Origin: Prostheceraeus crozeri
Lineage: Eukaryota > Platyhelminthes > Polycladida > Euryleptidae
Direction: 5' to 3'
Assembly (NCBI GenBank): GCA_907163375.1
Contig: CAJQUW010001789.1
Location: forward strand, 58,016 to 122,015
Length of the DNA: 64,000 nt
Positions within the stretch are counted from its first letter, which is position 1. The number at the start of each line of letters is the position of its first letter. This document shows positions 30,208-64,000 of the stretch, in pieces. The notes beneath the pieces were generated by a model that was given only the letters and a program-made list of their open reading frames with translations, did not search any database and was not told where the DNA came from. The translations under genes and the position numbers were made by a program.

Positions 30208-30213
30208 AAGGTT
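30208..30213. repeat. 6-bp target site duplication (left), Polinton-1
   Basis: AAGGTT here matches AAGGTT at 52467-52472 immediately outside the other end. A 6-bp duplication is the Polinton hallmark. Confidence 0.93.
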
Positions 30214-30852
30214 AGTAGTAATAAAACGGCGAACACCCAAACTGCGCCCCCCTTGTCAGACTAGGGCAGCCGCCCTAGTCCGACACCTAGTTTGTTCGAG
30301 TCCGACTCCCCCCCCCCTCTGGAACGACAGAGGTTGGAGTTGCCAGAGGTTGTTCGTGGTGCGCTCTCCAAGCTGGCGTGGTGTGCTGGCTAGGCTGGCG
30401 TGGTGTGCCGGCCAGGCTGGCGTGGTGTGCCGGCTAGGCTGGCGTGGTGTGCCGGCCAAGTTGGAATGGTGTGCCGGCCAGGTTGGAATGGTGGAATTTC
30501 GATGCGAGACCACTCCCATCGTGTTTCTCGTCAAAAGTTGGGTTAACAAAATTTTTTCACCCCCCCCCCTCCGGAGAGGTGGCTTGCCGTGGTCGGACTA
30601 GGTCGTGCCTTATATCAATCGAAAGCTAAGAGTGAGAGAAATTGAACGGCGGTGGTCCCATCTCAATGGGTTCAGCCGTTCAAAAGTTAGAGCCATTTCA
30701 AGATTTTAGGTCAGACCTTGGATTTCACGAAAAAATCCTAAGTGTCAGAGTGACTTTGTATGGGTAAAATTAAAAATTTTTCCAAAGTGTCAAATTTCGA
30801 CCTGGGACCTTTACCAAAACATTTTTCATCAAATTTCTCCGACCCCCCCCCT
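30214..30852. repeat. Polinton-1 left inverted terminal repeat
   Basis: It matches the complement of 51722-52466. It contains poly(C) tracts at 30308-30317, 30560-30569 and 30843-30851, each followed by a CTCTGGA/CTCCGGAGAG-like word. A 22-bp minisatellite lies at 30372-30493, and a block with AAAGCTAAGAGTGAGA recurs in altered form after the next poly(C) tract. Confidence 0.93.
30372..30493. repeat. 22-bp minisatellite inside left terminal repeat
   Basis: About 5.5 copies of GCTGGCGTGGTGTGCCGGCC plus two bases. The right terminal repeat has only about three copies, so the two ends have drifted in repeat number. Neighbouring open frames that read through it are artefacts. Confidence 0.9.
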
Positions 30853-31025: not shown

Positions 31026-31511
31026 ATGATGACCGACCTCCCGACATCGCGGCGTGTGGCAAGAGACCTTGGATATTCACTCCAAGCGATAGAAACTGTC
31101 ACACATCCCAATGAGAATATCAAGGCTGGTGATTTAGTTGAAAGACTCATGGATTTGGATGAGCATACCATGACTCGAAATCTGGATAGAAGTTGGATAG
31201 AGGATTTCACCATGTCAAACTGCAGCGAAAGGAGGGTGATAGTGGAGCGATATGGAAAGACGGCGACATTTGCTGATGATGAAAGTCCTCCGAACAAGAA
31301 AAGTGACTTAAGAGAGAAGTTGGAGCAAGAGACATTTAAATTATTTTGTGAACGTAAATGTATAGTATGTTTTCAACGGGAAAGGTCCCTTCTCACCCTA
31401 CCATGTGCTCATACCGTTCTCTGTTCTTCATGTCATGCGACATTGAAAACTAAACGTTGCCCTCTTTGTTCTGAAGAAATCTATTCAACTGCCAAGGTCT
31501 ATCTCCCATAA
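31026..31511 (+). CDS. UBA-like + RING E3 ligase-like protein (IAP C-terminus-like)
   Basis: The protein has 161 residues. Residues about 3-45 (ARDLGYSLQAIE ... DLVERLMDLDEH) resemble a UBA domain. The C-terminus is a C3HC4 RING: C112, C115, C127, H129, C133, C136, C145, C148. A UBA followed by a terminal RING matches the C-terminal half of inhibitor-of-apoptosis proteins, but no BIR domain is present. It probably acts as a ubiquitin ligase, and which host or viral-type protein it targets is unknown. I chose the ATG at 31026; an ATG follows directly. The gene has no counterpart at the same place in Polinton-2, where the terminal repeat runs straight into the next promoter. Confidence 0.8.
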   Translation: MMTDLPTSRRVARDLGYSLQAIETVTHPNENIKAGDLVERLMDLDEHTMTRNLDRSWIEDFTMSNCSERRVIVERYGKTATFADDESPPNKKSDLREKLEQETFKLFCERKCIVCFQRERSLLTLPCAHTVLCSSCHATLKTKRCPLCSEEIYSTAKVYLP

Positions 31512-31551: not shown

Positions 31552-31640
31552 TCCAATGAGAATCAAGCATTTCTATATAAATAGCGAGCCTTCCACATTG
31601 AGAATCATTCCATCGTTGAATCGCACGAGTGACGGACGCA
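31552..31640 (+). promoter_or_regulatory. TATA promoter with CCAAT box for the leader-intron gene
   Basis: CCAATGAG lies near 31556 and TATATAAATA at 31574-31583. A stretch conserved in Polinton-2 follows (ATTCCATCGTTGAATC near 31607), the likely initiator region. Polinton-2 has TTTATAAATA at the same place and two CCAATGAG words. A CT-rich tract ending in AG lies between the promoter and the ATG and could be an extra 3' splice site. Confidence 0.7.
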
Positions 31641-34468: not shown

Positions 34469-35086
34469 ATGGATTTCAGACTTCAATGCGATAAAGTACT
34501 GACTGCATCAGGTCCATCTCATGCAGGTAAAACTGTTTTCACGCCAAATTTATTGGATAAAAGAAGGGAGTTGTTTAAGGAACCTATCAATCGAGTGATT
34601 TGGTGTTATGGTATTTATCAACCGTCGCTGTTTCAGAAATTGCAAAGTCGCAACTTTATTCGACATGAAGGAATTATTCCAGTGGATAAACTTCAGTCTA
34701 ATGATGTTGTTGTATTGGATGATCTATTAAAAGAAAGTAAGAATTCCAAAGATGTTACAGATATGTTCACTCGCGCAGCATATCATAAAAGGTGCTTTAT
34801 CATCTATATCACACAAAATTTGTTTCCTGATGGAAAAGAAGCTCGTACACGAAACCTGACTACGCACTATTATGCTATTTTCAAGAATCCGCGAGATAAA
34901 AGTCAATTTGAAATTTTAGCGCGACAAGTTGCACCAAGAGGATCAAAAGCCTTAATTGAAATTTTTCAAGCAGCTACTGAAAAACCACACGGTTACCTAT
35001 TCATTGACTTTACGCAAGAGTGTCCGGAAGAATTTAGATTTCGAAGTGATATTTTGAAAACTCCCATGATTATCTACAAACTATGA
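34469..35086 (+). CDS. FtsK/HerA-type genome-packaging ATPase
   Basis: The protein has 205 residues. Walker A is GPSHAGKT (15-22), Walker B is VVVLDD (80-85), and a sensor-like TQN follows at 115-117. The layout is that of the A32-like packaging ATPases of Polintons, virophages and large DNA viruses, which pump DNA into the capsid. The first strand is very short, as usual in this group. The stop overlaps the next ATG by 4 bp (ATGA), so the two are probably expressed together. The gene appears intact in this copy. In Polinton-2 an extra base soon after Walker A breaks it. Confidence 0.93.
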   Translation: MDFRLQCDKVLTASGPSHAGKTVFTPNLLDKRRELFKEPINRVIWCYGIYQPSLFQKLQSRNFIRHEGIIPVDKLQSNDVVVLDDLLKESKNSKDVTDMFTRAAYHKRCFIIYITQNLFPDGKEARTRNLTTHYYAIFKNPRDKSQFEILARQVAPRGSKALIEIFQAATEKPHGYLFIDFTQECPEEFRFRSDILKTPMIIYKL

Positions 35087-35776: not shown

Positions 35777-35992
35777 ATGAAGCAGTTGTGTTGCTTGCCA
35801 TGTAATGAACCGCCAGAGGTGAATGTCGTTGTCACTTGCACTTGCTGCGCCAGCTCTCACAATGAAACCCCTAAGCAATGTGAACACGATCGCAAAACCG
35901 CTAAAGCTAAATGCTGCAGTTGTTGTAAATGTAGAAAGGCAGGAAAGCAAAAAGATGAGAAGGAGGAAAAAGAGTCAGTCGTCATCGACTGA
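35777..35992 (+). CDS. small cysteine-rich protein upstream of integrase
   Basis: The protein has 71 residues. It has CCLPC, TCTCC, CEHD and CCSCCKC clusters, then a Lys/Glu-rich tail. It starts one base after the previous stop and overlaps the integrase start. Polinton-2 has the same start and frame (63887 onward) with most Cys retained. The alternative frame over the same DNA is also open, so dual use cannot be excluded. No function is recognised; the Cys clusters suggest metal binding. Confidence 0.5.
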   Translation: MKQLCCLPCNEPPEVNVVVTCTCCASSHNETPKQCEHDRKTAKAKCCSCCKCRKAGKQKDEKEEKESVVID

Positions 35993-37042
35993 GCGTTTGA
36001 AGTCAATCTATTATGATGTAAAACATCCAGCAGGATTTGCATCTATCAAGAAATTATCAAAAGCGAGTGGTTTTCCACAATCACAAGTTAAACGATGGTT
36101 AAAGGGTCAGGCTACATATACACTCCACAAACAAGCGAAAAAGAAGTACCGTACCCGCCATTATATTGCCCATGACATTGATGAGCAGTGGCAAGCAGAT
36201 TTGTGTGATGTCGCCTCCATTTCAAAACATAACTCAGGAAATAATTTTATTTTAACCATTATTGATATTTTCTCGCGTTATGCGTGGGCTCAACCTTTAA
36301 AAACTAAAGAAGGTAAAGGAGTAGCAAAAGCATTCCAAACAATTTTTCGAGAAGGTCGCATTCCAAAAAGAATTCAGATTGATCAAGGAAAAGAGTTTGA
36401 AAATCAGCATGTGAGAAGATTATTTGAGAGGCATGACATTGAGTTGTTTAGTGTAAAGAGTGCCTATAAAGCTGCACTCGTTGAACTTTTTAATCGCACA
36501 TTAAAAAATCGCTTGTGGCGACATTTTACTGCCAACTTGACACAAAATTGGACAAAGGTTCTACAAGATACACTCCATGCCTACAATCTCCCTGTTCATC
36601 GTTCTATTGGACTCAGACCAGTAGATGTAAATGCTGACAATGTAGATAAAGTACGCGAATCATTCCAGCGTAAACGCACTCATGTGAAAAGTGATGTGAA
36701 AATTGGTGATAAAGTTCGTATCTCAAAAGTGAAGAGTGTTTTTGCTAAAGGGTACCTTCCGAATTGGACAGAGGAGGTATTTACAGTATCAAGGATTGAT
36801 CAAAAAGACTCTCCCACCACCTACAAGTTGAAAGATTACAACAATGAAGAAATTGAGGGTAGCTTTTACCGCGATGAGATTGAGGTAGTCACTGAAAATG
36901 AAACATATTTGGTAGAGAAAATCATCCGATGTAAAAACGGCAAGGTGAAGAATGGTGTCTTGTTAAATGGGCAGGTCATCCTTCAAGTAGGAACTCTTGG
37001 ATGCGTCGTGCCGACATCTTTCATCTAAGTGATCGACAGTGA
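35955..37042 (+). pseudogene. retroviral-type integrase with chromodomain, late frameshift
   Basis: Counted from the ATG at 35955, the DDE catalytic residues are D82 (WQADLCD), D143 (QIDQGKEF) and E177 (LVELFNRTLK), with 33 residues between the last two. The core is preceded by a helical N-terminal domain (YYDVKHPAGFASIKKLSK). A basic C-terminal domain follows, then a chromodomain start (TYLVEKII). The rest of the chromodomain (LVKWAGHPS) lies in the next frame, so one base has been gained or lost near 36950. The misread frame ends at 37028 and the chromodomain frame at 37042. The enzyme inserts the element and makes the 6-bp duplication. The open frame could start earlier, at 35823, but similarity begins here. 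Confidence 0.9.
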
Positions 37043-37083
37043 TTCATGCAAAGTTGTAACTAACAATGTTTAGGGTTTGAGCT

Positions 37084-37442: not shown

Positions 37443-38720
37443 ATGGAGTGTAAAACTTCCGGTTTTTGTTTGTTCGATCAACAAGCCACACAGACAGATA
37501 TTCTTAGTTCAAGTATTGTAGATTATCATCCTCGAACAGCTGAGAATGCTGGCCCCATTGAATTTGTTATTCCTGGTGGTAGTGATGACTACATAGATTT
37601 GAGTTATGCGATGCTTGATTTGAGGTTTAGAATTCAGCAAGCAGATGGAACTGCTATTGACGATGCACATAAAGTTGGACTGAACAATTTACCATTGACT
37701 ACATTACTTCGTGATGTTTCTCTAACGATTGGAGAGCAGCAGGTGGAAGGTGGTCAAAGCGATTATCCCTATAAATCATATTTCAATCATGTATCACAGT
37801 TTCATCCAGCAGCACAAAAAAGTCATATGGAAGCCATGGGATGGTACAGAGATGAAGCAGGAAAATTTGATGTTGAAACAAACAGTGGCTTTGTAAAGCG
37901 ATCTGCTATGATTAAAGATAGTAGAGTATGTCAGCTATATGGCCCGCTGAATTTAGACTTCTTTAGACAGTCAAAGTTTTTACTGTGTAATACCAGCATG
38001 CGACTCAAGCTGACATTGAATAAGCCTGAATTTGCGCTGAATGCATTTGGTAAAGTTGACAATTTTAGAATTCATGTGGAAGATATTGCACTTTACATTC
38101 GTCGAGTAGTACCGAATCCAATTGTCATTAGAGGACGTGCTGAAGGTCTTAACCGCCAAAATGCCATTTAACCCGTTCAGCATGCAAAGTTTCTCACCTT
38201 TACAATTCCGAAAGATCAAAAGAGTTTCATGAAAGATGGCCTCTTTCCATCGGAATCACCGAAGTTCCTCATGGTGGCAATGGTTGAAAATAATGCATTT
38301 AATGGTAATATAAAGAAGAATCCTTTCAATTTTAAACACAATCAGTTAAGTGAAATTGCTTTACGTGTAAATGGTGTGAGTCATCCTGGTCCACCCTACA
38401 AACCAGATTTTGCTGCGGATCAATTTATGCGCAGTTATGTTGATTTTATGAATGTCTTTGGCTTTTACAATACGGATGACACCAACGGACTCACAATGAA
38501 AGAGTTTAAGAGTGGATATACTATTTATGCATTTGATTTGACTGCTGACAGCGATATTAGTGCCCCCTATCGTCAAGCGAACGTGCCTCATAATATTCGT
38601 TTGGATTTGACGTTCAAAACAACGCTAGCTGCGACGATCAATGTATTAATTTATGCAGTCTTCGATTCAAATATTGAAATAACTAAGTATCGTGACGTGA
38701 TTCTCCAGTATAATCGTTAA
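37443..38720 (+). pseudogene. major capsid protein (double jelly-roll), one in-frame stop
   Basis: The frame runs 37443-38720 (425 codons) with a single TAA at 38169-38171 after GLNRQNAI. Both sides are in the same frame. The first half carries HPRTAENAGPIEFVIPGG and DYIDLSYAMLDLRFRI. The second half carries GLFPSESPKFLMVAMVENNA and GYTIYAFDLTADSD. These blocks are typical of Polinton/adintovirus hexon-like major capsid proteins. It follows the basic protein by 2 bp, and its stop overlaps the protease ATG (TAATG). Apart from the one codon the gene looks well preserved, which suggests recent loss or a sequencing error. Confidence 0.9.
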
Positions 38721-39181
38721 TGAGTTGGTTGACTGCTGACGATATTAAAGCTAAAGTACAGCGTAATGCAGATGAAGCGACGTTGAAAGCTTTCGATAAT
38801 GTCTATTCGCTCGATACCTTACCACCTGCAGTAAATCACTATCCCATCTTTATTGTGCTAAACACTCATTCGCAGAATTTAGGCGGTGAACATTGGAAAG
38901 CGATCTTTATTGGAGAAGACCGACGTGGTGAACTATTTGACTCTCTTGCTCAACCTCCAAATATACCAACACAGCAGTGGTTGAGAAAACACACGCGTCA
39001 ATATCAGCGAAATGAACGCATACTACAACATCCACTTTCATCAACGTGTGGTGCTTTTGTACTGTACTTCATTTTAAAACGTTTACATGTATCTCGATTT
39101 GTATCTGTTATTCAAAAATTTTTATGCAATCCATCTTCTAATGAAAAAATGATTTGTAAGTTCTATCATGATTTGAAATAA
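38720..39181 (+). CDS. adenain-like cysteine protease
   Basis: The protein has 153 residues. Catalytic residues are visible in the C5/ULP1 order: H58 in GGEHWKAIF, D74 in GELFDSLA, Q103 in ILQHPL and C110 in SSTCGAF. Polinton and adenovirus proteases of this type cleave capsid and core precursors during virion maturation. It directly follows the capsid gene with a one-base overlap. AATAAA at 39177-39182 overlaps the stop codon, so transcripts of this strand probably end here. The gene is intact. Confidence 0.93.
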   Translation: MSWLTADDIKAKVQRNADEATLKAFDNVYSLDTLPPAVNHYPIFIVLNTHSQNLGGEHWKAIFIGEDRRGELFDSLAQPPNIPTQQWLRKHTRQYQRNERILQHPLSSTCGAFVLYFILKRLHVSRFVSVIQKFLCNPSSNEKMICKFYHDLK

Positions 39182-39207: not shown

Positions 39208-39753
39208 TTATTTTACAATCCGCTGGGTACGTACATACTTGATGAGATAGTCTAGGATCACATTTGCTTGTACATGAGATTTTAGTCCAGTAATGATCAC
39301 TTTACTATTATGAAAGATTGCAACATGCACAGGTAACCAACAACTAATGAGAGCTGCAGGAAAAAGTTCGGGTTCATAACACAAATTGTAACTGCTGGTA
39401 CGAATCTTCAAAAATGATACATCTTCACTCAATTGAGTAGAGATCAACATATTGTCCACAGTCAGATTCGACATCACACACCTCTCCCTCTTCCATATCC
39501 GACGTAGTAGTCTCTGTAGCTCTAAGCGCATTGACTGCGCCGATGAATGAGAAAGGGCGCCGAGAATCTGTACAGTCCCATTTGGGAAGAGTTGAAGATT
39601 CCGTGAATTGTTCATCTTCACCACTAACATTTGAGGACGGCCCGGGTAATACTTGCTGTTTGGAATGTGTTGGTGTAATGTTGTGAGATCGATTTTGGTG
39701 TAGAGTCTGAAGCGACGGAGAATGTTGACGATGGTGTAGCGATGGCGCTTCAT
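39208..39753 (-). CDS. TATA-binding-protein-like protein
   Basis: The protein has 181 residues from the ATG at 39753, the length of the conserved TBP core. Two saddle repeats can be followed. Repeat 1 has KIDLTTLHQHIPNSKYYPG, then LQLFPNGTVQILGALS. Repeat 2 has LTVDNM, YEPELFPAALI, then VAIFHNSKVIITGLKS, closely matching the YEPELFPGLI and IF-x-SGK-x-x-x-TG blocks of eukaryotic TBP. Three of the four DNA-intercalating Phe positions are kept; the first is replaced at GRPQ. It probably directs Pol II or a modified pre-initiation complex to element promoters. A longer frame starts at 39897 but similarity begins here. AATAAA on the minus strand overlaps the stop. Confidence 0.75.
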   Translation of the reverse strand: MKRHRYTIVNILRRFRLYTKIDLTTLHQHIPNSKYYPGRPQMLVVKMNNSRNLQLFPNGTVQILGALSHSSAQSMRLELQRLLRRIWKRERCVMSNLTVDNMLISTQLSEDVSFLKIRTSSYNLCYEPELFPAALISCWLPVHVAIFHNSKVIITGLKSHVQANVILDYLIKYVRTQRIVK

Positions 39754-40075
39754 GATGAAAAAATGAGTAAATTGAGCGATGTACCTTCCTTTTATACTTT
39801 TCCCAACTACCTTGATGAAATGTGAAGTTAGTATGAAGTTGGGAATGATAGAGTTGAATTCGCCGTTTGTTGACGGGCAACCATATGCGATTTCCAATAC
39901 GTGAATGTCTTTTCATATAGAAGTATTTCAAATCCTTCATGATATGATGTAGAGATTGAAAATGACGATAAGATAAAACAAACTCTCTTCTCACATTTCC
40001 AGTTGAATCTTTGAAATAGACGTTTCGATCATGATCCGTTTCAATACGTTGTAGGGAATCTAATTTCCAACTCAT
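39425..40075 (-). CDS. PC4/Sub1-like paralogue A with overlapping low-complexity tail
   Basis: The frame has 216 residues. The first 110 or so are paralogous to the next minus-strand gene: WKLDSLQRIETDHDRNVYF, FVLSYRHFQSLHHIMKDL, WEKYKRKVHRSI. The strand-strand-helix pattern, with a block like GIxLxxxQWxxLxxxIxDI, recalls the ssDNA-binding coactivator PC4/Sub1, perhaps twice per protein. After residue 110 the frame runs into the TBP-like gene in another frame and is Ser/Thr/His-rich, so the extension may be chance. It lies directly upstream of the TBP-like gene on the same strand, which would fit a transcription role. The family call is tentative. Confidence 0.55.
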   Translation of the reverse strand: MSWKLDSLQRIETDHDRNVYFKDSTGNVRREFVLSYRHFQSLHHIMKDLKYFYMKRHSRIGNRIWLPVNKRRIQLYHSQLHTNFTFHQGSWEKYKRKVHRSIYSFFHHEAPSLHHRQHSPSLQTLHQNRSHNITPTHSKQQVLPGPSSNVSGEDEQFTESSTLPKWDCTDSRRPFSFIGAVNALRATETTTSDMEEGEVCDVESDCGQYVDLYSIE

Positions 40076-40097: not shown

Positions 40098-40466
40098 TTA
40101 AGATTTGCATAGTAGGGCGATGAACTCAAGACGAATAAATGTCATGATGGAGCGATGTATGTATCTTCTATACTTCTCCCAATTGTATTTGCGAAATGAG
40201 AAACAGTTTGCGGAATGAGAATGGCAGATTTGAATTTCATTGTTGCGATGTTGAAGCCAAACTTGATCACCCAAGGAGATGAATCTTAATGTTTCAAAAT
40301 ATTCCAAATCCCTCATGATATCATTGAGGTTGACAAATTGTCGCCATGTTAATGTAATTCCTCTTGATGTATGACCATGAGAATTTTTGAAATGTACGTT
40401 TCCATCACGATCAACTCTGATATATTGTAGAGAGTCCAAAATCCAAGTCTTCATGATGTTATGCAA
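40098..40466 (-). CDS. PC4/Sub1-like paralogue B
   Basis: The protein has 122 residues and is a clear tandem paralogue of the preceding frame: TWILDSLQYIRVDRDGNVHF, RGITLTWRQFVNLNDIMRDL, NWEKYRRYIHRSI. The RGITLTWRQF...IMRDL block is close in style to the KGISL...QW...I..ID block of PC4. The start is at 40466 or the second ATG at 40454, which gives the conserved TWILDS beginning. Only about 24 bp separate it from the divergent plus-strand gene at 40490, so the two share an upstream region. Confidence 0.6.
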   Translation of the reverse strand: MHNIMKTWILDSLQYIRVDRDGNVHFKNSHGHTSRGITLTWRQFVNLNDIMRDLEYFETLRFISLGDQVWLQHRNNEIQICHSHSANCFSFRKYNWEKYRRYIHRSIMTFIRLEFIALLCKS

Positions 40467-40489: not shown

Positions 40490-41089
40490 ATGTCGTTTTA
40501 TCATATTTTGCTTAGCAATGCGGTCACAAAGAGATTTGGTAATAATCGAGCCGCACTCTTTTCTACACCCATTGATCATACACAACAGCTAAATGGAAAG
40601 TGGGAAGTGGGTGTCACTCAACTTGCTCATAGCAACTGTGTCTATACTTTTAATCATGAAGTGATGACGATCAATGTGAGGCGTACAGAGGCTTATCAGT
40701 GTGAAGAAGGTTTTCGAGTTTACATTCCACAGTGGCCAAAGAAAGATCTCTTATCATGTAAAAAGTTTGTATGTGATTTCCTGAATAAAGATGGAAGACA
40801 CATCATCCACTTTTCTCCTAACAAAGGTGAATATGATTATATGCGTCATACAGTTGAAAAAGATTGGATTGTTGCTTTGATTCCGAGCTTAAGAAAAGAT
40901 TTAGGCTACTTTGCTAACGCCTTAACAAGCTATGATAATTATACTGTCAATTACTATCCCAAAGGTTGTAAAGATTTGATTTACAAAGAGAAAGCTTTTT
41001 ATGTGGATCTTATTCCGAAAAATGAAAAGACATTGGTGAAGAAGATTGTGATTAAGGCCAAAAATACAAAATGGCTCCTGAAACATTAG
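40490..41089 (+). CDS. virion-surface-like family, N-terminal part, copy A
   Basis: The protein has 199 residues. It opens MSFYHILLSNAVTKRFGNN and then has LNGKWEVGVTQL. The pattern of a short strand, S-N, F-x-N-N, and L-x-G-x-WEVG is found in a common Polinton protein family of about 400 residues that is probably structural (minor capsid or surface). In this element the family seems spread over consecutive frames, and the next part overlaps this one by 19 bp in another frame. A paralogous set follows downstream (41885-43444). It is intact as an N-terminal unit. Confidence 0.55.
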   Translation: MSFYHILLSNAVTKRFGNNRAALFSTPIDHTQQLNGKWEVGVTQLAHSNCVYTFNHEVMTINVRRTEAYQCEEGFRVYIPQWPKKDLLSCKKFVCDFLNKDGRHIIHFSPNKGEYDYMRHTVEKDWIVALIPSLRKDLGYFANALTSYDNYTVNYYPKGCKDLIYKEKAFYVDLIPKNEKTLVKKIVIKAKNTKWLLKH

Positions 41090-43701: not shown

Positions 43702-46700
43702 TTATGCTAAGACGTCTCCTGAATGTGGTAGTGTGAGTTTAATTCTTTTGGCTGGAGGAATGTCTGTATCAGGATGTCCATGTGGAAGAGATATGTTATG
43801 TTCTAACCAGCACCTCTTATCCTCCCATGCTGAAAGCGCCCGTTTCCTAAAAGTATGAGTTTTGATCTCATGCGACTTAGATTTTAAGATTGTCATATTG
43901 ACAAACGTTATATTTTTATTTCTATAGGCTTCCCTGAAATTTTTATGTTTCATGTTAGAGACCAATGATCTTGATATGCCTTTAGCGCGCTTAATACTAT
44001 CGTCGCTATCCTTTAATTTCATACTGTACATTTTTGGACGGAGGAGAATCATTTCATCTATTTCCTTCCCTGCTGTCTCATCCTTAAAGCAGCCAAGTTT
44101 TGCCTTATTTTTGATGGAGTAGAGTGGGTGATCAGTAGGATAATTTGATGTATCAAAATATCTTTCTAAAGATTTTCCTACTTCATTGAAATTTAAATCT
44201 TTTTGAGTGGTAATACCTAAGAAGAAACTATCTGTATCACCACCCAACAAACGAACCTCTTTTACGAGAGGACATGGTTTTAGTATTTTATAAAAGAGTT
44301 GGTACATTTCAAGCTTAGAGTAATCTAGTACAGCTTGGCCAATATAGATGGGCTTGCACAACTCAACTTCAGATTTTATCATTTTAACACCTACAAGGTC
44401 CTCATCGATAATGTCTCTATCGATGAATAGAGGTGATGAGACCAATTTCTTAAATTTTTTAACATCATTGACTAGTTTATAGTTTACACGTTTTCTAACA
44501 TCCTCCATCGTCTTACCAAATAGACTATTATTCTTATACTTATAAAAATCTTTTTCAAAATTATTTTGGGCTAGTGCACGTTTCTGGCTGTTACTATCAA
44601 TATATGGTTTGAGGAAGGCTTTCTGTCTAAACTTAATAATGCGGTGAACTCTTTCTAAAATCATGCCCAATTCTAAATAAAATTTTAAGATGCCAAAGTG
44701 AACTAGATAGTTTTCCTTATCATATTGGGTGAGTAAAAGTTTGCGGCAAGGCTTATAGTCGCGCTGACCGCATGATTCTAAATCTATGAAATTGTTCCAT
44801 AAAGTCGGAAAACATATCTTTGATCACTTCACCTGATTCGGGTGCGAGTGGAAAATCTACGGTTTTATGTTTAATATTATTTGGATAGATTAGATCTATC
44901 TCAAAATAATATCCCCAATCACCTTCATCTGGAATTGCTAGTATGTTAGAAGGGTTGGAGAGATGCTGAATTTCACTATCATCTAACCAGCTAAACTCAG
45001 AGTGAGGGAGTGGTTTGGATAGTGAACTACCATATAAATTATTTTGGTCATAATACTTAAGATGAGTCTGATCATCATCTACTATTTTTGATTTTAACCT
45101 ATGTTTAATTTCAAATGTGAGACCACCGCGAATTCCTCGCTCAAATAAATTATACATCTCTGGATCTTGTAAGAGATGAATGGTCTCTCCAGTCATTTTA
45201 AAAGCAGACTTAAATGACATGGCTGGCAGACTGACAAAGTGGACGGGATCTAACTTATCTTCTTCTAATGCCACTGGTCAAAACTCCTGAAATACATCAG
45301 CCAGCAAAAATAAATCTAACTTAAGATAGGCGATCATATATTCACCAAATGTATGGCAGTCAAATTTTATCCATGCATCTTGTGCATGATCACAATCTTC
45401 GGTCTTACATTCTGCGCCGGTCAAATCATTTTTAAATTTGTCTATGGGTGGAAGAGAAGTCTCGCCGAGTTTACTAATCGCATCAAAATATGCATATGGA
45501 AAGACTCCTTTCCGTGTGATGACTTCATCGGTTAGATTTGGATATTGTTTCTTAAGATTTTGTGTTAGTGGAAGAGTCTTTAGATTTTGTACGAGAGAGG
45601 CCAGTGATGCAGTCATAAATTGGTAGGAATCTAAAAATTTTATATCAAAATAGACCGTCTTATTTTCTTTAGTTTTATCGACAGACACTTTTGCTGTCAT
45701 GGCCATAAACTTCTCTCTCGTTTGTGCTATTACATCAAACTTCCACACTTTCATTTGACATAAACTTCCTTTTATTATCATGTGGCTGTTGTAGCCCTTG
45801 AAATTATGGAAAATGACGGGTAATGTACGCCGTTTCATCCTAAGTGAAAAATTGCATTTTGAACATAGTGCGTTTCTAAATTTACCAGTGATGTGATCAT
45901 GGTCGCGCACTTTCTTAATCTTATCATCATCAAATGTTTTACTACATTTGAGACAAACGTTGCAACTATCAAATTTTGCTTGATCATCTGCTGTCATATG
46001 CAATGATCTGCGATAGAGTTCACCATCATACTTTTGTTGAAATTTTACAGCCTGTTCGAGGAATTGTAGGAATTGGCAAATACAATCCTCACCTTGCCAG
46101 ACGTGCATTTTATTTTTTCTATTTTGGAAATGGTCATGCCATACTTCATAGCAGGATATGGCTGCTGGCTTGTGGATGATATCATCGATATAGCATTCGA
46201 TGTCAGCATAGATGACACGAAGAGGACTTAGTTCATCGCCATTCTCTCTATATGAAAACTCCTTATCTTTGGGCATGCGCTCCATTTGTAGTTTACCTCG
46301 CTTACACCATCCGTAATGAGTTTCAAATCTATTTTTACTCCTAAAGTTGCGAATGCATTTGTCACAGTAATGGATCTCTGATGAGGTAGAATTTCTTAAG
46401 TGGTGGTATAAGCGAGAAATTTTGGGAATAACGCAGTAGTGCCATTCCTCACTATCATCCTGTCTTACTAATAAAAGGTTGACAACGTGGTCATAACAAC
46501 TCGAACGCGAGTTGTAGCGGACACCCTTCAATCCCTTTTCCCAAACATGGAGAACTATTTTGATGTTGTTCAATTTTTCAAATTTTTCTATATCTTTAAT
46601 TTTCATATCTTCACTATTGCAGTCATCAAACTTTAATTCATTCTCCCACTGTTGATACTTACTCTTACGGTATCGGCTATACTGTACATCATTATAGTGG

Positions 46701-47707
46701 AGAATGGAGAGGACGGCATACTTAAAACATTGCGATTCGCAATCTACAGAAATGACTGCTGTTTTATTTTTTAAATTTTTTGGAAGTTTAAAGGAGCCTT
46801 GTCCAGAGTAGTTCTCTAATAAAGTGATTTTAATCATGGCGGTCTCAATACCATCAAAAACGAGACCACTATCACGCTCGTTAAATTTATCTATGTTTAA
46901 TTTTAACCCTTGGATATGAAAATTTATCCAAGACTCGCAGTCTACAACTTCGGTTGCAGGAGAGGAGGGTATGTGAAACTCCAACCTTTCTACTATTTGA
47001 CCAGTATGGTGGTCGATTTTTGCATATTTTATTTTGAGATAGATGAGCGCCTTCATTCTAAAATTGACTAAATTGTTGAAGAGCGCACCAATCAAAGATG
47101 AATTTTGATGAAACCATTCTTCAAAGTCAGTAATGGTTTCTGAGGATTCCATCTGGTAGTTCCTCACTAAATTATTTATCGACACTTCAGAGAGTCGGAT
47201 AGAGGAGGTGCTGTTAGTATGACTATCGTCACTGTGTGTATGTCGAAGTCTATGTGAAGATAGTTCAAAACGTGACTCAAAAGACTGAATGCATAAATCG
47301 CAAGAAAAGGAGACATCGTTAACAGAATCATCCCCACCTTCGGAGATTGATGCTGACTTAGGTCTACAAACACCTCGCTTGATGTGTTGGATGAGATTGC
47401 GCTTCCTCGTGAAGATGTGTCCACAGTCAGCACATTCCCGATCGTTGCATTCCCGCGACAATGTTGACATGGAGTCGCTGTTGTTATCCAACTCGCTCGA
47501 GATGGGACTGGTATCACCTGAAAGAGAAATCATTCTATCATCTCTGTTAAAGTCTCAGTGTATTGTTACAACCTACCTTCACTCAACAGCTCTAAACTTT
47601 CCTCTAGAAGGGAGGGCTTTGGTGATGAAGTTGATGCCTGAAATTGAGGAAGATGCTATTAGCCACACGTTTGAGGGAGATGAGAGAGGAAATCTTCAAC
47701 TTACCAT
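43702..47707 (-). pseudogene. protein-primed DNA polymerase B (pPolB), spliced 5' end, broken
   Basis: Exon 1 is the ATG alone (47705-47707). A 67-nt intron (47638-47704), exon 2 (47577-47637), a 59-nt intron (47518-47576) and the main exon follow, and the splice phases keep one frame. The main exon has C2H2 fingers (CADCGHIFTRKRNLIQHIKR), the Polinton-specific N-terminal domain, and exonuclease motifs (ADIECYID near 46200; HNFKGYNSH with Asn where Asp is usual). Polymerase motifs are A (DQNNLYG), B (KNNSLFGK) and C (GGDTDSFF). Damage: an in-frame TGA at 45278-45280 and a frameshift near 44770. The total would be about 1,290 codons. It replicates the element from a terminal-protein primer. 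Confidence 0.93.
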
Positions 47708-51369: not shown

Positions 51370-51432
51370 CGTCGCTTACCTCGTCTTTCGATGAAGTGAT
51401 GAGAACTTAGGTTGCAGCGCCTTATATAGTCA
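51370..51432 (-). promoter_or_regulatory. leftward TATA box followed by a splice donor
   Basis: On the minus strand CTATATAAGGCGC (about 51417-51429) is a strong TATA box. About 40 nt downstream GACGAG|GTAAGCGA is a good 5' splice site (near 51379). This suggests a leftward transcript with a non-coding first exon that could feed the minus-strand genes ending at 49247 and 48958. Confidence 0.5.
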
Positions 51433-51721: not shown

Positions 51722-52466
51722 CGGGGGGGTGGAGAAATTTGATGAAAAATGTTTTGGTAAAGGTCCCAGGTCGAAATTCGACACTTTGGAAAATTTTTTA
51801 ATTTTACCCATACAAAGTCACTCTGACACTTAGGATTTTTTCGTGAAAACCAAGGTCTGACCTAAAATCTTGAAATGGCTCTAACTTTTGAACGGCTGAA
51901 CCGATTGAGATGGGACCACCGACGTTCAATTTCTCTCACTCTTAGCTTTCGATTGATATAAGGCACGACCTAGTCCGACCACGGCAAGCCACCTTTCCGG
52001 AGGGGGAGGGGGTGAAAAAATTTTGTTAACCCAACTTTTGACGAGAAACACGATGGGAGTGGTCTCGCACCGAAATTCTACCATTCCAACCTGGCCGGCA
52101 CACAACGCCAGCCTAGCCAGCACACCACGCCAGCCTGGCCGGCGCACCACGAACAACCTCTGGCAACTCCAACCTCTGTCGTTCCAGAGGGGGGGAGTCG
52201 GACTCGAAGAAACTAGGTGTCGGACTAGGACGGCCGCCCTAGTGTGACAGGGGGAGTCGGACTCGAAGAAACTAGGTGTCGGAATTAGGCGGCCGCCCTA
52301 GTCTGACAGGGGGAGTCGGACTCGAAGAAACTAGGTGTCGGACTAGGGCGGCCGCCCTAGTCTGACAGGGGGGAGTCGGACTCGAAGAAACTAGGTGTCG
52401 GACTAGGGCGGCCGCCCTAGTCTGACAGGGGGGCGCAGTTTGGGTGTTCCCAGTTTTATTACTACT
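51722..52466. repeat. Polinton-1 right inverted terminal repeat
   Basis: It is the reverse complement of 30214-30852, with the same poly(C)/poly(G) tracts. It is longer because it carries four 59-60-bp units where the left end has one, although its 22-bp minisatellite is shorter. Confidence 0.93.
52190..52438. repeat. four tandem 59-60-bp units with GC palindrome
   Basis: Units begin GAGTCGGACTCGAAG at 52195, 52254, 52313 and 52373. Most contain the palindrome GGGCGGCCGCCC; the first has GGACGGCCGCCC and the second GGCGGCCGCC. The left terminal repeat has a single unit. It lies within 300 bp of the element tip. Confidence 0.93.
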
Positions 52467-52472
52467 AAGGTT

Positions 52473-59520: not shown

Positions 59521-59647
59521 TTTAAGATTTTGGGACATTGGTGAAAAACGACAGAGTTAGAATTTGGGACGTTTTGGGCTGTAGCTTCAAAACGAACTAT
59601 CGGATTGGTAAACGGATGCCAGATTTGGAATCAACTTGATGTTATTG

Positions 59648-59750
59648 TCCAATGAGGATCATCATCCAATGAGAATCAAGCATTTCTTTATAAATAGCGA
59701 GCCTTCCACAGTGAGAATCATTCCATCGTTGAATCACACGAGTGACGGAC
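59648..59750 (+). promoter_or_regulatory. promoter of the leader-intron gene, Polinton-2
   Basis: Two CCAATGAG words (near 59648 and 59666), TTTATAAATA at 59688-59697, and a conserved initiator-like stretch match the promoter in Polinton-1. Confidence 0.7.
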
Positions 59751-59794
59751 GCACATTTTCTCTCTCTAGTTCCCTGTTCTATTATCCAACTAAA

Positions 59795-60569
59795 ATGGTA
59801 AGTCGCTACTTCCCTCCTCTCCTCCCTTGAACGTAAACTTAATACAATCTTTTTTCATTTTCAGGCATCTACTCCATCTGCTGCACTAGTAGGACAAAAT
59901 GGCGGTCAAACGTTACAAGGTTCGCTACGGTCAGATCATCTACAACTGAGGCCAGTGGAAGAAACATCCAAGGTACATAATCCTACACCGCTACAGCGTA
60001 AATTTAAACAAGCCTTGCGTTATGATGATCATAGCGTAGTACTCCAAACGGGAATGCTCCCTTCCACGGATGTCAAGATAATGCACAATCAGTATGGGGA
60101 CTACATACTGATCCCCGTGAGTCCGTACATTCGCCACCAACTTGATATTATTGAGGAGTACGTGACATTAAATATGGACATTCCTACTCCTCTTGCTCAA
60201 GAGTGGAAGGCGAGAGATGACAAGGATACTCCCTATAGAAAGATTTGGGATGGTAATCACATTTGCCTACCGGTATCACATTGGTGTACTTACTATAAGA
60301 AGGAGGGAGATCATTCAATACCCATCAGATGTGATGAGCTCGGAGAAGGTACTTGGGATATCCTTTTCAAAGTGAATGGGCTATATTATGGTCGACACAA
60401 GGATAATAAAATAGCCTCTCTCTCCATGCATATGGAATCCATCCTATATATTCCGAAACCACCCAACGTGGACGACATAATTGATCAAATCCTTAACAGC
60501 AGTGGTACGAAGCGCAAGTCGGAGAAGAATGCTACATCAAAACGCAAATCAAAGAAGGAGAATTGCTAG
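59795..60569 (+). CDS. conserved leader-intron gene, intact copy (unknown function)
   Basis: Exon 1 is ATG only (59795-59797), the intron is 59798-59864 (67 nt, GTAAGT...TTCAG) and exon 2 runs 59865-60569 without a stop. The product is about 235 residues. It begins with a Ser/Ala/Gly/Gln-rich segment supplied by exon 2, then the conserved region starting NPTPLQRKFKQALRYDDH, and ends in KRKSEKNATSKRKSKKE, a likely nuclear localisation signal. Compared with Polinton-1 it lacks the premature stop and has a longer basic tail. No known domain is seen. First position after the promoter suggests an early or regulatory role. Confidence 0.8.
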
Positions 60570-60603
60570 TCCTTTCCTAACTCTACCCTATGACAATTCG
60601 CTT

Positions 60604-60729
60604 ATGTGCTTTGAGTGTCGTAGACGTGGTCTTATTAGATACATTTTACTTCTTCGTTGCCATCATATCATTTGTGTATTTTGTCGTGAAAAGCATCGAT
60701 GTAATTCTTCATTTTGTAATATGTTATAG
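60604..60729 (+). CDS. small RING-like Cys/His protein, Polinton-2
   Basis: This is the 41-residue counterpart of 32495-32620. It keeps CFEC, RCHHIICVFC and HRCNSSFC. The few substitutions avoid the Cys and His, supporting a real protein, but it is short. Confidence 0.5.
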   Translation: MCFECRRRGLIRYILLLRCHHIICVFCREKHRCNSSFCNML

Positions 60730-60781
60730 AACGTTTCCTTAGATGTGTAAATTTCCGTTTTAGGCTTCTATCATCATTTTT

Positions 60782-61312
60782 ATGGATTGTGAGGGTGAAC
60801 CTGTACAGGAGCTCAGTGCTATTGCTATGAACAATTGGACATATCAGATTGTTAGTGTCTATCATCAACATGCCAACTGCGATCCCAATGTTGATCAATG
60901 GGCGAGAAAACACATTCATGGACTTAATCTGAAATATTTGCAAGACTATGGCTTTTCTTGTGAGAGTGCTCTTCTTATTGACTTTAAACGATGGTTAGCT
61001 GCTTTCAATGTTATACGCATCTTTTGTAATAATCCTGGTAAGGAGAGGAAAGTATTTCCCAATCTAATCATTGATGTTATTTTGCTCCCACCTTGGGAGA
61101 GTAGAGTGAATCAACATTATCATGAAGTCACGAAACGTTTTAAGGATTTGTGTGTTCCTATTTTGTCTGTTCGTTGTAGTAGCTACGTTCATAACCAATG
61201 CTTCTTTCCTCCTTACCTCAACACTGCCAAAGTCCTGTATGGTTATCATTGCTCGCTGTATGATAGTTACCAGCTGTATCTATTTTATCTCTTTCAAACC
61301 ATTGATTTATAA
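60782..61312 (+). CDS. DEDDh exonuclease-like protein, Polinton-2
   Basis: This is the 176-residue counterpart of 32673-33203. It keeps MDCEGE at the start and HCSLYD near the end. FCNNPGKE is also unchanged, so the missing Exo II Asp is not a copy-specific mutation. The in-frame upstream hydrophobic stretch after TTTTAG (60764-60781) is conserved too. Confidence 0.65.
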   Translation: MDCEGEPVQELSAIAMNNWTYQIVSVYHQHANCDPNVDQWARKHIHGLNLKYLQDYGFSCESALLIDFKRWLAAFNVIRIFCNNPGKERKVFPNLIIDVILLPPWESRVNQHYHEVTKRFKDLCVPILSVRCSSYVHNQCFFPPYLNTAKVLYGYHCSLYDSYQLYLFYLFQTIDL

Positions 61313-61399
61313 TGCATGCTTGTTACCATTATTCAATAAATGTTACTATGAGAAGAGTTGTTGTTTTCATGCAATGGATGGGTTAGATAAAGGGCGATC

Positions 61400-61810
61400 A
61401 TGTCTTTCTCAAACGACTGCGGAACATTACGTTTTCATAGGCAAAGTTTAAAAGGAGCTGTTCAAGATTATGTGATAAAATTTCATAAAGATGAGACCGA
61501 CATCGAAGCAGTGGTCGATGATGCTAGCACTCTATTTCTAGAGTTAATGAATACATTCTCTGATAGCATTATCATGGCGCGATTAGTTGCGAAAATTAAG
61601 TTTAGTCATTTTGGAAAGGAAGAGGTGGAAAGTCGCTCTTTCCATTTTGCTTCTTATTCAATGGAAGTGGTAGATCACCCCCAAGAATTTTTTAAAAGAC
61701 ATATGATAAAAATTGCTGAACGTCTTAACGCATTTAACCATCATGGTAGCAGTCTAGTGATTGAAGCGATTTCAGATATTCACATTCAACTTTCCATAAA
61801 GAAAAATTGA
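61400..61810 (+). CDS. polymerase-N-domain relative, Polinton-2
   Basis: This 136-residue frame is nearly identical to 33291-33701. It keeps KIKFSHFGKE and LNAFNHHGSSLV. The frame is open in both elements with mostly mild changes, supporting coding function. Confidence 0.6.
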   Translation: MSFSNDCGTLRFHRQSLKGAVQDYVIKFHKDETDIEAVVDDASTLFLELMNTFSDSIIMARLVAKIKFSHFGKEEVESRSFHFASYSMEVVDHPQEFFKRHMIKIAERLNAFNHHGSSLVIEAISDIHIQLSIKKN

Positions 61811-61812
61811 AA

Positions 61813-62137
61813 ATGCAGTGGTACTTGATTGTAGCACAACTGGTTTTCGAGCTATGTCTGCTCACTCTCGAAGTATATTCCTTCTGTACATGCGTCTATT
61901 ATTTAGAAAAGGCTAGCAAATTCATATCTTCAAAAAGACTTGCTATAGACATCAGTAACGGTGAAAACTATGTGTTGCGATGTATGTAAGCGAAAGGATG
62001 GAAATGAAAAGCGCATCTTCAAGAGATGTAAGCATGCTTTTTGTCAACGCTGTTTCATACGTAATTGCATTCAACTTTGCCAATGTAACCACTGTGACAT
62101 TGCTCATTTCGAGTGTCACTTATGTCGCAATAGTTAG
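61813..62137 (+). pseudogene. membrane RING-like protein, frameshifted copy
   Basis: The hydrophobic N-terminal part is intact (61813-61989). One extra A before the Cys-rich region shifts the frame. The RING part is open from an ATG at 61970 to 62137 (55 residues) with CCDVC, RCKHAFCQRC, CQCNHC and a final FECHLC. This last pair is complete here, unlike in Polinton-1. Confidence 0.6.
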
Positions 62138-62188
62138 TACCTATGCAAATGTGGTAAAGATAGGTTTTAGCAAAGACTAACACGGAAA

Positions 62189-62545
62189 ATGGCGAAACGT
62201 AAAATGACGAAACGTAAAAGTCAAAAGTTTTCTTCAGCCATTCAAGCTCTCCGACGAATGAAAGCAAAACAGCGATACAATGCTATACGACATGCTAACG
62301 ATAAATTCATTTGTGAAATTATTTCTCATGTGAGGAAGTTGAGGACGAAGAAATTAGCGCCAAAACAACGAAAGTTACTTAAGCGATATGCTACGAAATT
62401 TGCGTTTCATCTCAATCCTAAAGTCGCCCTTCAAAGAAAGAGGAAAACTCTAACACAAAAGGGCGGTTTCCTTTCAGCAATACTTCCAATGATAGCTCCT
62501 GCCGTGGGCAACCTATTGGGAAATATCTTTGGCTCTAAGCGTTAA
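62189..62545 (+). CDS. small basic virion-like protein with QKGGFL motif, intact copy
   Basis: The protein has 118 residues: a Lys/Arg-rich start, helical middle, LTQKGGFLSAILPMIAPAVG, and a short hydrophobic tail ending GSKR. The equivalent in Polinton-1 has two stops. This type of protein is conserved beside the ATPase in Polintons and is likened to adenoviral core or membrane-active proteins. It precedes the ATPase by about 30 bp. Confidence 0.72.
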   Translation: MAKRKMTKRKSQKFSSAIQALRRMKAKQRYNAIRHANDKFICEIISHVRKLRTKKLAPKQRKLLKRYATKFAFHLNPKVALQRKRKTLTQKGGFLSAILPMIAPAVGNLLGNIFGSKR

Positions 62546-62576
62546 TTATGCAAATGTTGAGTCTCAAAGTAATAAA

Positions 62577-63195
62577 ATGGATTTCAGACTTCAATGTGAT
62601 AAAGTTCTGACTGTATCAGGTCCATCTCATGCAGGTAAAACTGTTTTCACGCTGAATTTTATTGGATAAAAGAAGGGAGTTGTTTAAGGAACCTATCAAT
62701 CGAGTGATTTGGTGTTATGGTATTTATCAACCGTCGCTGTTTCAGGAATTGCAAAGTCGCAACTTTATTCGACATGAAGGAATTATTCCAGTGGATAAAC
62801 TTCAGTCTAATGATGTTGTTGTATTGGATGATTTATTAAAAGAAAGTAAGAATTCCAAAGATGTTACAGATATGTTCACTCGCGCAGCACACCATAAAAG
62901 GTGTTTTATCATCTATATTACACAAAATTTGTTTCCTGATGGAAAAGAAGCTCGTACACGAAACCTGAATACACACTATTATGCTATTTTCAAGAATCCG
63001 CGAGATAAAAGTCAATTTGAAATTTTAGCGCGACAAGTTGCACCCAGAGGATCAAAAGCCTTAATTGAAATTTTTCAAGCAGCTACTGAAAAACCATACG
63101 GTTACTTATTCATTGACTTTACGCAAGAGTGTCCGGAAGAATTTAGATTTCGAAGTGATATTTTGAAAACTCCCATGATTATCTACAAACTATGA
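62577..63195 (+). pseudogene. packaging ATPase, frameshifted copy
   Basis: The ATG at 62577 and the Walker A region (GPSHAGKT) are present. One extra T about 80 bases in shifts the frame into a stop. The rest, including VVVLDD and YITQN, is open in the proper frame to 63195. Polinton-1 has the intact version. Confidence 0.88.
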
Positions 63196-63885
63196 GTTCT
63201 TATTCTCGCATGATTGTTATTCCTCAGGATGAATATGTACAATTGACTGCCATGCAGCAAGTAAAGCAACCTCTTGCAAATCAAATGTATAGGAAAGAAA
63301 TAGATTATCAGCAAAATGTTCACAGCAAAGATCCACATCGTGCGGTATTATTACAATCGGAAACTGTTGAGCAATTGAAAAACTTGAAGAATAAGATGCG
63401 TGACTCTGTATCGACTGCTACACCTTTAGCATCTCGCGCACATGCCATATCTCTTTTCAACAGTATTGAACCCCATCTCAATGTAAATGATAGAGGAGAA
63501 ATCATTACAGATGAAAATAAAGTGATTGATGCTTCACGTTATGAAGACTTGATTCAGTATGCGACACGTAGAAAGCGCCGTCAGGGCTATGTTCCACCTG
63601 GTTGGTCATACTTTCTTAAACTATTGAAAAAGCATAATGTGCCAAAATTTGCTTTAAATAATGAGACATTGAAAGAACTTGATTCAACAGTGGCTACTAC
63701 TCCAATGCTTCAGGCGATGAAAATGCCAACAAATTGGTTTAAGACGTCACCTGCTACATCCCCTCCCACACTCACTAAGCAAACAAGGGGAAGAACTCGA
63801 CGTAGATCTACATCGCCACTAAAACTGGTAAAAGGAAAACGTAAAACAGCTCCTCCTAAGGAAATACATGTTCTCAGACTATTAA
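63192..63885 (+). pseudogene. conserved protein next to ATPase, copy with late frameshift
   Basis: It starts in the ATPase stop (ATGA) as in Polinton-1 and is open for about 220 codons. An inserted base in the final basic tail shifts the last few residues, and the open frame then runs on to 63932. The natural end matching Polinton-1 is near 63885. The change is close to the C-terminus, so the protein may still work. Confidence 0.65.
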
Positions 63886-63886
63886 T

Positions 63887-64000
63887 ATGCAGCAGATGTG
63901 TTGCTTGCCATGGAATGAGCCGCCAGAGGTGAATGTCGTTGTCACTTGCACTTGCTGCGCCAGCTCTCCTAATGAACCCCCTAAGCAATGTGAACACGAT
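63887..64000 (+). CDS. small cysteine-rich protein, partial (window end)
   Basis: This is the first 38 codons of the counterpart of 35777-35992. TCTCC and the following CEHD are kept; the first Cys cluster has one Cys changed to Trp. It is cut by the window end, and the integrase would follow. Confidence 0.45.
   Translation, partial: MQQMCCLPWNEPPEVNVVVTCTCCASSPNEPPKQCEHD

Follow-up and report, generated by a model that had tools for sequence, protein, structure and literature searches.

A Polinton in the genome of the flatworm Prostheceraeus crozeri carries a gene for a divergent homolog of the TATA-binding protein (TBP), and we favor, with modest confidence, the reading that its product acts as the element's own core-promoter factor by recruiting TFIIB and RNA polymerase II (Pol II) of the host. 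This role is argued for most strongly by the apparent near-invariance of the TFIIB contacts and of the DNA-binding surface of the second repeat across the family, with the rest of the protein diverged, in a carrier whose scanned ORFs gave no polymerase or TFIIB match. The strongest objections to a role predicted in this way from sequence are that the element shows no excess of TATA boxes and that the first repeat is altered. Through this protein, the element may possess its own promoter selectivity, as an earlier note on this DNA had suggested.

The element and its gene content

The window, meaning the whole stretch of 64,000 nucleotides that was analyzed, contains an element of ~22 kb bounded by inverted terminal repeats (Table 1). 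The element has terminal inverted repeats, an rve integrase, a C48-type protease, and gene order in common with Polintons, Mavericks, and adintoviruses. Judged by its repeats, its integrase, and its protease of the Ulp1/adenain type, which in a relative at site L076 exceeds the Pfam cut-off (7.1e-5, 23.2 bits), it is a Polinton/Maverick. Further labels are presumptive. The ORF with the P-loop is taken to be packaging-ATPase-like, and a relative of it has weak AAA/A32 matches that fall below cut-off. The major capsid region is presumed from gene order and PolB from motifs, including a DTD motif present in the last piece. Gene order and motifs are the basis of these two labels since no library confirmed either: the presumed capsid has no Pfam or PDB sequence match, none of the three window pieces of presumed PolB nor one relative's piece matches PolB in Pfam, and one piece has no PDB sequence match. 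The capsid homolog in L076 is a single open frame. In the window copy, both of these presumed genes, PolB and capsid, are interrupted, while the TBP frame is open.

Among 30 window ORFs of 100 aa or longer (29 within the element), no Pfam match to an RNA polymerase or TFIIB was found (E up to 0.1 or 1), so the host polymerase would be needed. A C3HC4 RING-finger ORF (31026-31511, 9.2e-12), presumably of the IAP kind as judged by eye, also lies inside the element. Just to the left of the element is a Mariner/Mos1-like transposase ORF (28278-28949), and a tandem satellite array of 70 copies of a 298-bp unit, most of the 30 listed units being 95-100% alike, extends from 196 to about 21000.

Table 1. 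Features of the element and its surroundings, in window coordinates.
Feature	Position	Strand	Details
Left terminal inverted repeat	30212..30849		
Left-end TATA box	31574..31583	+	TATATAAATAG; also in second copy near 59688
Packaging-ATPase-like ORF (presumed)	34469..35086	+	P-loop GPSHAGKT seen by eye
rve integrase	35823..37028	+	Pfam PF00665, 3.1e-10
Presumed major capsid region	37443..38720	+	Two ORFs, split in window copy; label from gene order
C48/adenain-like protease	38720..39181	+	PF02902, 19.3 bits, just below cut-off of 20.7; tail to tail with TBP
TBP-like gene	39208..39753	-	181 aa, predicted two-repeat saddle; ATG at 39753 to stop at 39208
Region shared by ORF1 tail and N-terminal repeat of TBP	39425..39753	-	329 nt, same strand
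ORF1	39425..40075	-	216 aa; PUR-alpha repeat I-II fold predicted for residues 1-108
Inr-like TCATT	39762..39766	-	nt 31-35 from TATA T
TATA box of TBP gene	39789..39796	-	TATAAAAG; first T 43 nt before TBP ATG; also codes ORF1 'YK'
ORF1-domain paralog	40098..40454	-	118 aa, without tail; 43% identical
Presumed PolB	43702..47533	-	Three ORFs, broken in window copy
Right-end TATA box	51421..51428	-	
Right terminal inverted repeat	51723..52468		
Second element copy	59619..64000	+	95% identical over ~4.4 kb; window ends before its TBP gene

Identity, fold, and phylogeny of the TBP-like protein

The open frame lies on the minus strand, the plus-strand reading of 39208..39753 containing many stops. 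The earlier note had recognized the length and two-repeat layout of a TBP core in its product, which holds: the 181-aa protein matches Pfam TBP in two stretches, well over the cut-off (E = 1.1e-19, 70.5 bits vs. 22.9), and matches TBPs in the PDB with E down to 1.9e-12. Structure prediction (AF2, VIA-align), which the earlier note had named as a test, gave a TBP saddle with high confidence. The sequence blocks to which the note had drawn attention are likewise found, YEPELFP at aa 126-132 and IF-x-NSK-x-x-x-TG (AIFHNSKVIITG) at aa 145-156, and its count of three intercalating Phe residues out of four is borne out by contact mapping, which locates them at F56, F131, and F147, with P40 at the fourth position. 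By its Pfam domain, two repeats, and predicted saddle fold, the protein is assigned to the TBP superfamily.

This sequence by itself found 55 homologs (E up to 0.001); with a profile the number rose to 488, and 120 of these were listed. All 132 homologs collected match Pfam TBP and no other family (E up to 0.001), and the family spans down to 30% identity with the window protein. Scans of IMG/VR with the TBP, the TBP alignment, PolB, the ORF1 alignment, and the ATPase ORF found no relatives, as did a scan of GTDB with the 132-row TBP alignment, and PHROGs gave no TBP match.

The main tree comprised 36 hand-chosen family rows (31 of the 132 collected proteins and 5 own-genome rows). Its references were human TBP, two archaeal TBPs, one TRF2 exon of the host, and the host TBP as two exons that lack the C-terminus. 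The second tree comprised 36 of the 132 collected proteins, also hand-chosen, and six references, three of them entered by hand. In the main tree, all family rows stand together on one side of a branch supported at 100/100, split from host TBP and TRF2 in the comparison that the earlier note had proposed; the second tree separates the family from its references with the same 100/100 support. No grouping with TRF2 was seen in the main tree, where the host TRF2 exon, partial and on a long branch, falls on the cellular side; membership of TRF2/TLF was therefore rejected, TRF2 being placed with the cellular TBPs. The window protein is identical to host TBP at 38 of 144 positions and to M. jannaschii TBP at 46 of 165, and the closer archaeal match is probably due to slow evolution of the archaeal protein and not to descent.

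Copies and lineages in the host genome

The host genome (2.05 Gb, 14165 contigs) was searched for TBP, giving at least 150 matches, and 30 loci were read, of which 26 are element copies and 4 are exons of host TBP and of a TRF2-like gene. The host's own canonical TBP exons and the TRF2-like gene were found at L001, L003, and L002/L009, as would suit an animal host. Because element TBP genes outnumber host TBP (26 of the 30 loci read, at least 150 matches), the host could be affected by whether they are active or silenced. Thirteen of the element loci belong to lineage a (89-97% identical to the window), nine to lineage b (42-45%), and four to lineage c (39-44%). At least three TBP-carrying element lineages therefore exist in this genome, with b and c 39-45% identical to the window's TBP, and the search of other Polintons for the gene, also suggested by the earlier note, thereby yielded two further carriers.

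Lineages a and c have their gene order in common. At two lineage c sites read further, the integrase is 61-62% identical at both and the P-loop ORF 63% at one, with 50-57% for the presumed capsid, 42-44% for the protease, and 35-62% for PolB pieces; TBP lies between the protease and the homolog of 40490 there, as in the window. The lineage b sites L071 and L074 both retain TBP, ORF1, and homologs of 31945, 32673, and 33291, and PolB is represented by pieces of 46-67% identity at L074 and by fragments only at L071. Capsid, protease, integrase, and P-loop had no match within 8 kb on either side at these two sites, and L071-L074 possibly represent a capsid-less derivative. The gene at 40490-41089 is 71-77% identical to the window protein in 12 of the 13 lineage a loci, where its neighbors are at about 95%, and 92% identical at L026, a divergence that points to an exchange of alleles or to recombination involving a single gene module.

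The window protease has at least 150 matches, those listed being 97-100% identical. Forty of 150 protease sites were chosen by stepping down the list, which makes the sample non-random and favors intact proteases, and next to them the TBP frame is full length (181 aa) at 29 and ORF1 at 25. The frame is thus conserved among near-identical elements as well as in the two additional lineages, so that neither of the two grounds for refutation named in the earlier note applies. A spurious frame that resembles TBP by chance or artifact, for which nothing beyond its short length can be cited, has a negligible probability and is ruled out by the Pfam TBP and PDB matches, the predicted fold, the homologs that all match Pfam TBP, and these full-length frames. 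Elements do acquire genes of their hosts, and the full frame is absent at 11 of the 40 sampled sites, as might be expected if the gene were a host TBP or TRF2 copy that was captured or domesticated recently and has no role in the element. However, this reading is very improbable, being contradicted by the 488 homologs, the same gene position in diverged elements, the low identity to host TBP, and a clade that stands apart from host TBP and TRF2 in the main tree.

Selection was estimated by pooling 38 of the 40 sampled sites with the window (two short blocks dropped). The pN/pS of TBP was 0.54 (jackknife se 0.08) outside the overlap with ORF1 and 0.49 (0.09) within it, and that of ORF1 was 0.28 (0.05) for the body and 1.71 (0.34) for the tail. 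Because wrong-frame controls over the non-overlapping part of TBP gave 0.68 (0.12) and 1.02 (0.24), purifying selection on TBP among recent copies seems modest at most. Much of the variation among these copies is probably post-insertion decay, and cross-lineage conservation is better evidence of constraint on TBP than pN/pS within copies.

Conservation of contact residues across the saddle

Contacts were mapped onto 132 family sequences in human TBP numbering (339 aa), with the reference checked against 1nvp and the 339-aa chain. We took E284, E286, and L287 as the TFIIB-contact residues of the C-terminal stirrup and A184, N189, E191, and R205 as the TFIIA contacts. The DNA-contact or intercalating positions were taken to be N257, V259, T313, F288, and F305 in the second repeat and N167, V169, F197, F214, and T222 in the first.

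The TFIIB contacts are kept in 130 (E284), 132 (E286), and 121 (L287) of the 132 sequences, and the second-repeat DNA residues in 132 (N257, F305) or 131 (V259, T313, F288), the V259 position being Leu in the window protein itself. In the first repeat, F214 is kept in all 132 and N167 in 111, the remaining 21 being gaps. F197 is absent throughout, with Pro in 127 of the 129 sequences that have a residue, Gln in 1, Thr in 1, and 3 gaps, so that only three of the four intercalating Phe residues of canonical TBP occur across the family. T222 is replaced in 132/132 (Leu 115, Met 10, Phe 7), and V169 is kept in 6 and lost in the other 126 (Met 93, 13 gaps). As for the TFIIA contacts, A184 and E191 are kept in none, N189 in 19, and R205 in 8 of 132, with Lys at the E191 position in 104. 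By these contact sets, the TFIIB-facing half of the saddle appears to be kept and the TFIIA-facing half rewired across the family. The first-repeat losses (the intercalating Phe, the DNA-contact Thr, and Val169 in 126 of 132) could mean weak or no TATA binding.

In the proposed mechanism, the Polinton TBP would act in the nucleus, where it would bind and bend promoter DNA of the element and recruit host TFIIB, followed by host Pol II. Its dependence on TFIIA would be reduced, with most TFIIA-contact residues gone and E191 commonly replaced by Lys, and the replacements in its first repeat (Pro for Phe; Leu, Met, or Phe for Thr) would turn its DNA preference away from TATA boxes of the host. Much the same traces would be expected from a protein that competes with host TBP or from one that bends DNA for replication. 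A protein that draws TFIIB, or TATA sites, from host TBP and so dampens host transcription would fit the kept TFIIB stirrup, the lost TFIIA residues, and an element in which TATA boxes are not enriched, but such a competitor seems unlikely, as the second-repeat DNA contacts are constrained (131-132 of 132) beyond the need of a TFIIB trap.

Comparison with cellular and viral TBPs

The Polinton TBP is about 19-28% identical to eukaryotic and archaeal TBPs, from which the family differs by the two first-repeat replacements, by the loss of most TFIIA residues, and by being carried by a mobile element. It resembles TRF2/TBPL1 in being a TBP relative with an altered DNA-binding surface, TRF2 being a TBP paralog; judging by the human TBPL1 sequence, TRF2 loses other Phe residues than the Polinton TBP. 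TLP is reported to bind TFIIA with high affinity (PMC4149786), whereas most of the TFIIA residues are lost in the Polinton TBP.

Large DNA viruses (giant viruses, mirusviruses, and asfar-like viruses) also encode the TBP fold, and BFVD matches to the Polinton TBP include the TBP of Heterosigma akashiwo virus 01 (E 3.2e-10). Mirusvirus TBP is reported in 59% of genomes (PMC10132985), a megavirus has an RNA polymerase, a TFIIB, and a TBP of its own (PMC11464507), and CpV-BQ1, a virus of algae, has genes for a TBP and for two TFIIB proteins, which its authors consider likely to redirect host RNA polymerase (PMC12085832). CpV-BQ1 is the nearest precedent for the proposed mechanism, not for the carrier. 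In contrast to the megavirus with its polymerase and TFIIB and to CpV-BQ1 with its TFIIB, the ~22 kb element has a match to neither in its scanned ORFs.

Full-text literature on Polintons, Mavericks, or adintoviruses together with TBP, TATA, or TFIID did not, among the matches listed, present TBP as a Polinton gene. There is no mention of TATA or TBP in PMC11071296, PMC8363768, PMC10675110, PMC11071308, PMC4642659, PMC10120064, PMC4028283, or PMC8097293, and PMC12220804 contains none beyond an author name. TFIIB figures only as a giant-virus marker in PMC13037468, TBP is mentioned apart from Polintons in PMC7786948, and TATA-binding proteins occur in alga elements of putative mirusvirus origin, not in Polintons, in PMC10675990. 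A TBP family in small integrating elements without polymerase or TFIIB would be a natural experiment in how the best-conserved promoter factor can be rewired, raising the questions of whether TFIIA is dispensable and whether DNA choice is determined by one half of the saddle or the other, and it would provide a handle on the timing and targeting of Polinton transcription.

Overlap with ORF1 and PUR-like neighbors

The C-terminal half of ORF1 is the TBP gene read in another frame; this overlap and the nested promoter described below are new relative to the earlier note. Of 20000 synonymous shuffles, 4 left the overlapping frame equally open. The frame is open for at least 305 nt in 8 of the 9 rows of lineage b and in 1 of the 3 rows of lineage c, where L005 alone has the long overlap and L004 and L007 stop early, with L010 outside the count. 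In four pairs, the conservation of the ORF1 tail was reached in 0, 0, 7, and 0 of 2000 shuffles by similarity score and in 11, 7, 296, and 0 of 2000 by plain identity. The third-frame control was also low (103, 37, and 5 of 1000 in three pairs) because shuffling erases shared ancestry at silent sites too. Conservation of the tail may be a mere by-product of TBP conservation, the similarity shuffles speaking against it and the identity shuffles less so, and pN/pS among copies gives no sign of current selection on the tail.

ORF1 is predicted to be a conserved PUR-alpha-like protein, with an identity to PUR-alpha of 7-8%. None of 16 members had a Pfam match with E below 0.042, Foldseek gave E no better than 0.097, and the PDB sequence search nothing better than 0.042. 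The PUR-like neighbors of TBP have a predicted fold of the single-strand-DNA-binding type and may act with TBP at promoter opening. Their adjacency also accords with an architectural protein that would bend DNA when the element is replicated or packaged and would have no role in transcription, as does the position of TBP near well-matched PolB pieces at one of the two lineage b sites (fragments at the other), with no capsid or protease within 8 kb at either. Nevertheless, the TFIIB contacts E284, E286, and L287 are kept in 121-132 of 132 and would be unneeded for bending alone, and we regard this explanation as improbable, slightly more so than that of a competitor.

TATA boxes and a nested promoter

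The three TATA boxes to which the earlier note had pointed, at 31574, 59688, and 51.4 kb, are all present, the last (51428) on the minus strand; in the 59688 region, the second copy reads TTATAAATAG. TATAWAWR is not enriched in the element, which has 7 sites against a shuffled mean of 9.35, and since 155 of 200 shuffles had at least as many, enrichment was rejected. TATA is absent within 150 nt of the start for 24 of the 27 ORF starts scanned. By position, we take as promoter-like the boxes at the left end (common to copy 2), at the right end, and at the TBP gene; the remaining TATAWAWR sites of the element are found 7 nt upstream of an ATG or else opposite the presumed PolB.

TATAAA occurs at -43, -46, or -47 from the TBP ATG in all three lineages. 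In an alignment of the window with 25 of the 26 own-genome TBP loci (L025 was dropped, having no start Met within reach), TATA[AG]A is found in 25 of 26 rows and strict TATAAA in 24. TCATT, which we label Inr-like, taking nt 31-35 from the TATA T as Inr spacing, is found there in 22 of the 25 TATA-bearing rows. An upstream extension reading x-I-K/N at matching spacing, as in-frame TATAAA would read, is present in 14 of 19 listed homologs with an extension, and the lineage c homologs of 37084 and of the protease have TATA motifs at -51/-52. Conservation of the TATA box of the TBP gene is partly explained by coding because the same bases encode a conserved ORF1 motif, the TATA and TCATT bases specifying Y-K and S-F/L of ORF1.

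We infer that a TATA and Inr-like promoter nested in the upstream PUR-like gene drives TBP, so that the TBP gene would be expressed from a promoter of its own. A fuller version of the core-promoter reading is tentative and, taken as a whole, rather doubtful: the half-rewired saddle, with its TFIIB/second-repeat half kept and its TFIIA/first-repeat half replaced, would assemble with host Pol II, at promoters of the element alone, a preinitiation complex that does not need TFIIA, and TBP and the overlapping PUR-like single-strand-DNA binder would be a co-evolving promoter-opening module with an autoregulated nested promoter, in an integrating ~22 kb virus without RNA polymerase.

The commonest word upstream of ORFs is no commoner than in controls. 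Of 22 ORF starts, 4 have ATGCAAA (at 37046, 40104, 40461, and, in the second copy, 62143) 29-46 nt upstream, and this word may belong to the promoters of genes that have no TATA box. For ATGCAAA, none of 300 control sets reached such a count, but as the best of many words it is a weak signal.
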